Assembly: GCF_009663395.1 (NCBI RefSeq) | Contig: NZ_QKNW01000001.1 | Location: 186,001 to 250,000, forward strand | Reading direction: 5' to 3' | Length of the DNA stretch: 64,000 nt | Origin: Halosegnis longus | GTDB lineage: Archaea > Halobacteriota > Halobacteria > Halobacteriales > Haloarculaceae | In this document: in pieces, positions 2,622-5,147 of the stretch | Numbering within the stretch: the stretch's first letter is position 1 | Layout: each line of letters starts with the position of its first letter | Made by a program: the position numbers and the translations under genes | Notes under the pieces: generated by a model | What the model was told of the DNA's origin: nothing | What the model saw: the letters and a program-made list of their open reading frames with translations, nothing else | Databases searched by the model: none

Positions 2622-2927
2622 TCGCGGCAACAGCTATTTTTGCTCGCTCTCGTGAACGTGACACGTGAGCAAGAATATCGTCCGGTAGCCGAGACCCCGG
2701 TCGACCGACGCGCTCGCCCGTCGGTCGACGCCGGAACCAAGAGTATTAATATCGTTGACAGCAATGATGAGGGCGACTGACATTGGACCACCTGCACGAC
2801 GCAGCCACACAGCAGCCGGAGGTTTGTTTTTCTCGCGGTCCGGAGCAGTCAGTCGTCGATGCCGCCTGTCGCGTATCGGACGGCCAGAGAGCCGGTGCTG
2901 TTGGTCCACTGACGGGGGTGACCACTC
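2622..2927. other. Intergenic region with hairpin, TATA-like element and short ORF
   Basis: The only gap above 300 bases in the window. It holds a T-run near 2634 after the preceding gene, a perfect 11-bp inverted repeat at 2700-2729, a TATA-like GTATTAATAT at about 2742-2751, and 22 bp further on an ATG (2764) opening a 55-codon frame. That frame ends at 2931, overlapping the GTG of the next gene. The frame is rich in arginine and poor in acidic residues, unlike real proteins here, so I do not call it a gene. Confidence 0.5.
2700..2729. repeat. Perfect inverted repeat, 11-bp stem and 8-nt loop
   Basis: GTCGACCGACG at 2700-2710 is followed 8 nt later by its exact complement at 2719-2729. The hairpin could terminate transcription of the upstream gene, mark a small RNA, or be a dyad bound by a protein. 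It is not followed by a T-run on the plus strand. Confidence 0.7.
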
Positions 2928-4586
2928 GTGAGTGACGGCAACGACAGCGTACGACGGTTCACCGAGTCGTGGGACGGACCGACGACAGATATCGAAATCG
3001 AGTCCGTCGCGGTCGACCAACTCACGGCGGGAGACCACATCGTCGTCTCGCCGGGTGAGCGGATTCCGCGCGCCGGCAGACTCATCGCCGTCGACGGGAG
3101 CGATGACAGAGCGCCGGCGTTCACGGCCGTCGGCGAGACGTGCCGCGTCGAGACCGACGAGGGCGTCGAGTCTCGGTCGGTCGGGAGCCGAGTCGCGGCA
3201 GGCGAGTCAGTGCGCGACCGGACGGTCATCGTCGAGGTCGGTCGTGGAGGGGTGGCGACGCTGCTACCGACGGGGGCGCTCGGATTCTCCGGCCGGCTCG
3301 GCGGGCGTATCGCCGTCGTCACGCTCGTCGTGCTCATCACGCTCGCAGGGGCTGGCGTGGGTGCAATCAGCATGTTCGGAGGGGGAGGCGGGGGCGACCC
3401 CGTCGGCCCCGGAACTCCGACCGAGACACCGCCAGCACCGGAGGTGACAGTCACGCCACCGGGAACGGCGACGCCCGAGTCGTCAGAGACGCCCACTCCG
3501 CCTGAGGAAACACCGACGGGACCGACATCAGGAAGTGACGCGCCGACGGCGACCGCAACCCCTGGAACGGATACGCCGACGGGGACGGCCACGCCGACAG
3601 CCTCGCCGACGCCGACAGCTACGTCCACCAGCGGCGGGAACACGGGTGGAGACAGTGGAACCGACGACGCCCAGCCGCCGCGCGTCAGCGTGGACGCCGA
3701 GGCCGGCGACCCACCGGCGTACCAGGCTGCTGATGGCCGGGTTTCGTCCGTCTCGGGGACGGTTAGCGGGAGCGTGTCGTGGTCCGGTGTCGACGCCGAC
3801 AGCGTCGTCATCGTCGTCCAGACGTGGCTCCCCGGCGCGGGCTGGGCAGAAGTGGAACGGGTGACGGTGTCGGGGGCTGCACTCGACGGCGGGACCGTCG
3901 ACCTCGAAACCGCTCTCGGGAGCGTCGAGTACGCCGACGCGGCCCGGACGGGCGGCTTAACGAACCCCGACCCGGGAACGACGGCCACCCGAACTGGCCG
4001 GGTCGCGGTGACGGCGGTCGCGTTCGCCGACGGCGCTGAGGCCGCGCGCACGACCGTCGAAGACGAGTTCGAGACGACAGTCGAACACGTCGAGTTCGAC
4101 CTCGCCCTCGGCTCGGCGTCGGGTGACGGCGGGTCGTTCTCCTTCGACGGAGGGGCGACGGATGCGCTGACGCCCGGCCAGCGAGTCGCCCTCGTCGGAA
4201 ATCTCACGAACACCGGGGAGATGGCCGGACAGCTTTCGATCGCCCGCGTGAACGTGACCGACTTCGAGAACGGGCAGACAGCACCCGAACGGGCGGTGGA
4301 TTCGACCGGCGGGGACCCCGGTGTCGGTGCGGGTGAGCTGTCCGAAGCGCTCGAAGTTCGGGTTCTCGTGCGCGACGGGGACGGCGAGACGAGCTACGCT
4401 CTCGGCGGCGAGGACAGCTACGTCCCGCTGTCGGCGCTGACGGACGGAGAGACGGCACTCGGGACGCTCGATGCGGGAGAGACGGCAGAGCTGACCGTCG
4501 AGATGCGCGTCCCGCCGGACGTGGGCAACGAGATACAGACGGACTCCGTCGACATCGACTTGGCGTTCGCGTTGACGAGTGCGTAA
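2928..4586 (+). CDS. Membrane-anchored surface protein with orphan P-type-ATPase-like actuator domain
   Basis: 552 residues from a GTG start; an in-frame stop at 2919 rules out a longer form. Residues ~22-112 read like the actuator (A) domain of P-type ATPases: LTAGDHIVV, PGERIP at 42-47, then VGETCRV around 68-74 where transporters have TGESxPV, then a segment equivalent to VxAGT. No phosphorylation or nucleotide-binding domain follows. Instead there is one membrane helix (~126-150), a Thr/Pro-rich linker (~157-245) typical of haloarchaeal surface proteins, and an acidic ectodomain (~250-552), possibly beta-sandwich. Topology should be N-in, C-out. Function unknown; the A-domain match is motif-based. 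Confidence 0.75.
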   Translation: MSDGNDSVRRFTESWDGPTTDIEIESVAVDQLTAGDHIVVSPGERIPRAGRLIAVDGSDDRAPAFTAVGETCRVETDEGVESRSVGSRVAAGESVRDRTVIVEVGRGGVATLLPTGALGFSGRLGGRIAVVTLVVLITLAGAGVGAISMFGGGGGGDPVGPGTPTETPPAPEVTVTPPGTATPESSETPTPPEETPTGPTSGSDAPTATATPGTDTPTGTATPTASPTPTATSTSGGNTGGDSGTDDAQPPRVSVDAEAGDPPAYQAADGRVSSVSGTVSGSVSWSGVDADSVVIVVQTWLPGAGWAEVERVTVSGAALDGGTVDLETALGSVEYADAARTGGLTNPDPGTTATRTGRVAVTAVAFADGAEAARTTVEDEFETTVEHVEFDLALGSASGDGGSFSFDGGATDALTPGQRVALVGNLTNTGEMAGQLSIARVNVTDFENGQTAPERAVDSTGGDPGVGAGELSEALEVRVLVRDGDGETSYALGGEDSYVPLSALTDGETALGTLDAGETAELTVEMRVPPDVGNEIQTDSVDIDLAFALTSA

Positions 4587-4694: not shown

Positions 4695-5147
4695 ATGACC
4701 GACTCCAGTTCCGGTTCCTCGCGCGTCTCCGTCTCGACCGAGGGACAGAGTCCGTCGCTCGTCGTTCGTGCGGTGTACTTCCTGCTCGTCGGGTGGTGGG
4801 CGAGTGGCGTCTGGCTGAGCGTCGCGTGGCTGTTGAATCTCACCATCATTCTGATGCCGGTCGGGATCAAGATGATAAACTACGTCCCGAAGGTCGTCTC
4901 GCTCAAAAATCGGACCATCGAGATGGAGACGCTCACCGACGAGGACGGAACCACCACCGTCTCACAGCGGTCCAGAGACCAACACTCGCTGCTCGTCCGG
5001 GGCGTCTACTTCCTGCTCGTCGGCTGGTGGGCAAGCGGCGTCTGGATGTCGGTCGCGTGGGTCGCCTCGGTCTCCATCGTCGGGCTTCCCGTCGCGGTGT
5101 GGATGTACAGCCGTCTGCCGTACGTCGTCTCGCTGTACCGGTACTGA
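4695..5147 (+). CDS. Tandem YccF (DUF307) membrane protein
   Basis: 150 residues from the ATG at 4695, chosen because an upstream in-frame start at 4599 adds only a non-membrane arginine-rich stretch. Two YccF-type repeats are obvious: each begins with an (R)AVYFLLVGWWASGVW-like helix, followed by a second helix ending in MPVG or LPVA, then PKVVSL or PYVVSL. The two copies share an identical 12-residue stretch, FLLVGWWASGVW. The link between them is hydrophilic and threonine-rich. YccF proteins are inner-membrane proteins of unknown role. Likely four membrane segments. Confidence 0.8.
   Translation: MTDSSSGSSRVSVSTEGQSPSLVVRAVYFLLVGWWASGVWLSVAWLLNLTIILMPVGIKMINYVPKVVSLKNRTIEMETLTDEDGTTTVSQRSRDQHSLLVRGVYFLLVGWWASGVWMSVAWVASVSIVGLPVAVWMYSRLPYVVSLYRY

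Follow-up and report, generated by a model that had tools for sequence, protein, structure and literature searches.

A predicted actuator-type beta-roll on a candidate membrane anchor of haloarchaeal SipW/TasA-type fibres

The gene at 2928-4586 of the window, the 64,000-nucleotide stretch of the Halosegnis longus genome analysed here, codes for a protein in which a predicted actuator (A) domain of the P-type ATPase kind is joined through one membrane helix to a surface stalk that ends in a TasA-like domain. We favour, with moderate confidence, the interpretation that this protein crosses the membrane once, is not cleaved, and either anchors a SipW-dependent TasA-like fibre or helps to assemble it, with a dead A-domain beta-roll as its cytoplasmic cap; we infer this role from its anatomy and from the operon position of its relatives. 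The pairing of the A-like domain with a TasA-like end recurs in several archaeal lineages and is for that reason probably a real, so far undescribed machine part. To our knowledge the pilins of archaeal SipW/TasA-type fibres are known and their link to the membrane is not; by position and anatomy, this family is the best candidate for the membrane anchor of the haloarchaeal fibres.

Upstream of the GTG the frame stays open for two codons only (554 codons in total), and therefore the start of the gene is tightly bounded. The GTG is preceded by a Shine-Dalgarno-like sequence, and a comparable GGTGA lies a few bases 5' of the GTG start in the Haloferax orthologues. The features of the gene, all on the + strand, are as follows.

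2914..2921, + strand: Shine-Dalgarno-like GGGGGTGA, 6 nt ahead of the GTG, recognised from the sequence
2928..4586, + strand: whole gene, 552 amino acids, GTG start; A-domain-like module, membrane helix, Thr/Pro linker, Ig-like domain and TasA-like domain
2940..3263, + strand: A-domain-like beta-roll, residues 5-112 (PF00122, hhalign, AlphaFold2 model and fold search)
2994..3263, + strand: Pfam PF00122 match, residues 23-112 (Pfam scan)
3129..3140, + strand: VGET, residues 68-71, at the alignment position of the catalytic TGES loop; TGES not kept (alignments)
3264..3308, + strand: hydrophobic stretch ahead of the membrane helix, residues 113-127, with positive charges at its end; a similar segment is found in relatives
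3309..3380, + strand: membrane helix, residues 128-151; its end has the GAGxG pattern seen in SipW-type signals, with no F-[S/N]-D box
3381..3677, + strand: Thr/Pro-rich linker, residues 152-250 (sequence)
3678..4085, + strand: predicted Ig/FnIII-like ectodomain 1, residues 251-386 (AlphaFold2 model, fold search)
4086..4583, + strand: predicted TasA/camelysin-like jelly-roll ectodomain 2, residues 387-552 (fit to TasA 5of2, BLAST, weak PDB profile matches)

The single membrane helix, the Thr/Pro linker and the long ectodomain (residues 251-552) are all present as the sequence-only reading of this DNA had described them. The layout is common to 10 other genomes, and an artefactual fusion or frame error was rejected on the ground that the same domain order is found in independent assemblies of several genera. 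Directly 3' of the gene, at 4695-5144 of the window, a protein is encoded that consists of two YccF-like halves scoring just below the Pfam cut-off.

The N-terminal beta-roll is an A domain in its predicted fold, and independent tests place the resemblance above chance. Pfam model PF00122 gave an E value of 4.8e-6 when residues 1-131 were scanned by themselves and of 8.8e-5 for the whole protein, the score of 22.5-26.6 bits being below the curated cut-off of 28.1; the relative L071, from genome G106, passes this cut-off (37.5 bits, E 2.3e-9). The best NCBIfam matches of the window protein are models of P1B heavy-metal ATPases. Profile comparisons pointed in the same direction: the N-terminal part of the family profile matches A domains of haloarchaeal ATPases with E values down to 6e-13, and hhalign against nine haloarchaeal P1B A domains gave 98.7% (E 4.6e-16). 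The control comparison with SipW peptidases gave 1.5%, and on this value an origin of the N-terminus from the beta-domain of a SipW or S26 peptidase was rejected. The AlphaFold2 model of the N-terminus, built on an alignment of family members only, has a pLDDT of 73 overall and mostly 77-90 over the beta-strands. A Foldseek search of the PDB with this model returned P-type ATPases in all 50 of the 50 best rows, and VIA-align placed P-type ATPase A domains at Z 9.4-12.9, among them 7r0g (1.6 A, 82 residues aligned) and 2hc8, the A domain of CopA in isolation (Z 10.8).

Against the PDB the family profile matched KdpB (4e-7), the ATP7A A domain (1.8e-5) and the CopA A domain (1e-4), and it also matched SPT5 KOW and uL24 (E 1e-3 to 2e-2). 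The latter matches are what may be expected if the N-terminus were a KOW/SH3-like small barrel, or some other beta fold sharing the GDxVxVxPG pattern, instead of an A domain. However, the P-type ATPases are three to four orders of magnitude better in that same profile search, and the uniform Foldseek rows, the VIA Z-scores and the passage of L071 over the PF00122 cut-off also argue against such a barrel, which we regard as very improbable. Both the lone actuator-type beta-roll on a membrane-anchored surface protein proposed by the sequence-only reading and its suggested comparison with PF00122, which led to the A-domain fold and not to an unrelated family, have thus held; its alternative of a repurposed beta-roll fits as well. 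We know the A domain only as an internal part of P-type ATPases, and no report of a lone A domain was found in the literature searched, the coverage of which was partial.

The A-like part is predicted to be catalytically dead, and not a working actuator, because the TGES motif has been lost and the P domain is missing. In the alignments TGES is kept in nine of nine P1B ATPase controls and absent from all five A-bearing lineages. The GETCRV that had been read as standing in place of TGES is indeed a replacement of that motif, to be understood as a degenerate loop that is different in every relative. As had been claimed from the letters, neither a P domain (DKTGT) nor an N domain was found by Pfam in the window protein, which has one membrane helix as against six or more in a P-type ATPase. 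DKTGT is likewise absent from the proteins encoded across the window and around the relatives with the full architecture. The genome, that of a 2.77-Mb haloarchaeon, includes exactly two DKTGT sites, both in complete ATPases with their own A domain; consequently, a split P-type ATPase completed in trans was rejected for this genome. The same search for a partner bears on the suggestion that the lone domain binds and modulates a P-type ATPase in trans, which would couple metal or ion pumping to the surface fibres. The true A-domain fold and the two P-type ATPases encoded in the genome speak for it, but each of these ATPases carries its own A domain and no DKTGT protein lacks one, TGES is lost, and an ATPase gene adjoins none of the relatives examined, the neighbourhoods of which point instead to SipW/TasA fibre genes. 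This suggestion is left unsupported, and modulation in trans is highly unlikely.

An Arg and other positive charge stand before the membrane helix and no charge follows it, so the distribution suggests that the protein would be inserted with the N-terminus inside and the C-terminus outside. The end of the helix is GAGxG-like in nearly all family anchors, as in the signals of SipW substrates. On the other hand, the F-[SN]-D cleavage box was present in 35 of 69 family proteins, all of the TasA-pilin type; the 23 anchor-type proteins all lack it. Model TIGR04088 (SipW-type signal) does not match the window protein or five anchor-type relatives, whereas it matches the TasA-like proteins of the window genome itself.

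In its AlphaFold2 model (residues 246-552, pLDDT 83) the long ectodomain is composed of an Ig-like domain and a jelly roll of the TasA/camelysin type. The sequence-only reading was right that a long ectodomain is present, and missed that it consists of two identifiable domains and that it is TasA-like. Residues 251-386 form a predicted Ig/FnIII-like sandwich that matched no Pfam family, the nearest structures being RbmA (4kkr, Z 9.7) and the factor XIII Ig-like domain (Z 9.0). Residues 387-552 superimpose on TasA 5of2 with Z 11.0, at 2.7 A over 135 residues; two of the 20 alignment rows of the model are PF12389-bearing TasA-like proteins, and the model is in this respect not wholly independent of the TasA link. 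BLAST connects the ectodomain to PF12389-bearing SipW-dependent proteins at about 1e-15. When the ectodomain profile was compared with all PDB sequences only TasA and the archaeal bundling pilin AbpX were matched, and weakly (E 0.04-0.6). The VIA list for the ectodomain holds monomeric TasA only, and the absence of the AbpX/TasA fibre entries 9sj2 and 8aur from it is not evidence against them. Outside the haloarchaea, relatives of the TasA-like ectodomain occur in Patescibacteria (L091, L092, L101, L111, L115) and Thermobifida (L105, L107). A Haloferax TasA-like protein (L055:9124-10767) has a choice-of-anchor W domain behind its TasA-like domain.

A search with the ectodomain found the family in 67 of 292 Halobacteria. 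Of about 415 haloarchaeal genomes, 11 have the full architecture. One is the window genome and seven belong to the Haloferax genus group (the members named are marisrubri, gibbonsii, prahovense, sulfurifontis, massiliensis and denitrificans); the others are G099 and G211 from one further genus and G106 from another. A search with the N-terminus by itself yielded, besides the gene itself, frames of 600-1000 codons that resemble complete P-type ATPases. In a tree of the ectodomains the A-bearing proteins form a group (99/98) that also holds a single member without an A domain, and a single clade of A-bearing proteins is not rejected (p-AU 0.44). This A-less member, G343 (Halorarius), which belongs to the same family group as the window genome, has probably lost the A domain. 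In Haloferax denitrificans (L064 / L082) the anchor frame is broken inside the ectodomain into two ORFs, by decay or sequencing error.

Selection on the A-like part in Haloferax is purifying, real but modest: among the orthologues the dN/dS was 0.31 for the A-like part, 0.36 for the linker, and 0.20 and 0.11 for the two ectodomains (0.11 for the TasA-like one). That the linker is nearly as constrained as the A-like part is a point against the anchor interpretation. The weak constraint on the A-like part, the one probable loss in Halorarius and an identity of only 30-41% between lineages are all compatible with a passive remnant: a piece of an ATPase, acquired by accident, whose sole remaining use is to hold the N-terminus in the cytoplasm as a topogenic plug. 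The domain has nevertheless been kept across at least four haloarchaeal genera in two families, its core residues V27, L32, G35, D36, G43, G50, G86 and V102 are invariant, and the dN/dS is below 1, and we consider a remnant of this kind improbable.

Most relatives lie in clusters that include a signal peptidase, with the Bacillus SipW ranked first or second among its curated matches, as well as TasA-like proteins with SipW-type signals and a DUF7344 winged-helix gene. The order in Haloferax is one or more TasA-like genes, sipW and the anchor gene, with 7 nt from the sipW stop to the anchor GTG; family members that lack the A domain occupy the equivalent position in other genera. Each of the 13 genomes tested, all the A-bearing ones among them, codes for SipW-type peptidases. 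The window gene stands alone at 188.9 kb, about 118 kb from the nearest sipW. At C1:69.9-72.9 kb the window genome includes sipW, two TasA-like (TIGR04088/PF12389) pilin genes and a DUF7344 gene, the anchor gene being absent from this locus, and a second sipW locus is found at 1382-1388 kb. Since the gene is not adjacent to sipW in the window genome, G099, G211 or G106, the link to fibres is there by homology only.

Two other features of these neighbourhoods were observed. A membrane protein of about 120 amino acids with the motif YGVGDIVTT adjoins the anchor gene in most SipW clusters (L055:6070-6423, L060:8028-8381, L144:7063-7413 and others), and no Pfam family matched the two members scanned. 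The second SipW locus of the window genome (L143, C1:1378000-1392000) encodes TasA-like proteins, of which one weakly matches von Willebrand A, and similar vWA genes adjoin SipW-dependent genes on haloarchaeal plasmids (L074, L075).

The DUF7344 genes raise the possibility of signal transduction, in which the TasA-like ectodomain would sense the assembly of a fibre or contact with a surface, and the event would be relayed by the A-like domain to a cytoplasmic regulator such as a DUF7344 winged-helix protein. RsgI, an anti-sigma factor with one transmembrane segment, provides a general model. The topology is appropriate, with a small cytoplasmic beta-domain, one helix, a long stalk and a binding ectodomain, and helix-turn-helix genes of the DUF7344 type adjoin most SipW loci, those of the window genome included. 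Yet most members of the family have no A-like domain and still keep the DUF7344 neighbour, and we know of no signalling role for an A domain; signalling is unlikely to be the function. A speculative reading, for which we would claim only a minor chance, is that the actuator domain has been removed from its pump and now serves a receptor that anchors the fibre, as its lever or docking module in the cytoplasm, through which attachment or tension on the fibre may be passed across the membrane to an intracellular partner.

If the protein is a fibre anchor, as we favour, the missing cleavage box implies that SipW would leave it uncleaved, and the Thr/Pro stalk would hold both ectodomains at a distance from the membrane. 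The TasA-like domain at its end could then join the TasA-like pilins that have been secreted and cleaved by SipW, with donor-strand complementation as the probable mode, and as a consequence the fibre would be held or nucleated at the cell. Inside the cell, the A-like beta-roll might act as a folded cap and as a module for protein docking or oligomerisation. A point against this interpretation is that the TasA-like domain cannot polymerise exactly as TasA does, because it lies behind the Ig-like domain and has no free N-terminal strand. The protein is a concrete candidate for the anchor of archaeal SipW/TasA-type fibres that is directly testable in Haloferax, and the recurrence of the arrangement after loss of the catalytic loop suggests that the actuator beta-roll can be a free module.

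With the A domain of P1B ATPases (CopA 2hc8, ATP7B 7si7, ZntA 4umv; PF00122) the N-terminus shares the predicted beta-roll fold, the GDxVxVxPGExxPxxG signature and a predicted cytoplasmic location with a membrane helix next to it. The window protein differs from these ATPases in lacking TGES and the P and N domains, in having one helix instead of eight, and in being joined to a surface protein. The likeness to TasA/camelysin (CalY) and the AbpX pilins consists of the C-terminal 166 residues, with their predicted TasA jelly-roll fold, and of the location of family genes beside SipW and PF12389 genes. Unlike in those pilins, the TasA-like domain forms the tip of a stalk tethered to the membrane and is preceded by an Ig-like domain; the protein has no SipW cleavage box and is unlikely to be a repeating pilin.

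In Bacillus, TasA polymerises by donor-strand exchange, the signals are cleaved by SipW, and TapA, encoded next to sipW, initiates the fibre and perhaps anchors it (PMC9674648, PMC10151520). TapA, which is itself cleaved by SipW and has no cytoplasmic domain, differs from the window protein in both respects. TapA resembles the family in anatomy and, as regards the Haloferax members, in gene position: in the tapA-sipW-tasA operon of B. subtilis TapA is a minor partner encoded beside sipW, includes an Ig-type domain and is thought to anchor or start the fibre (PMC10151520, PMC9674648), and the genes tapA and sipW overlap there; in Haloferax the anchor gene and sipW lie 7 nt apart.
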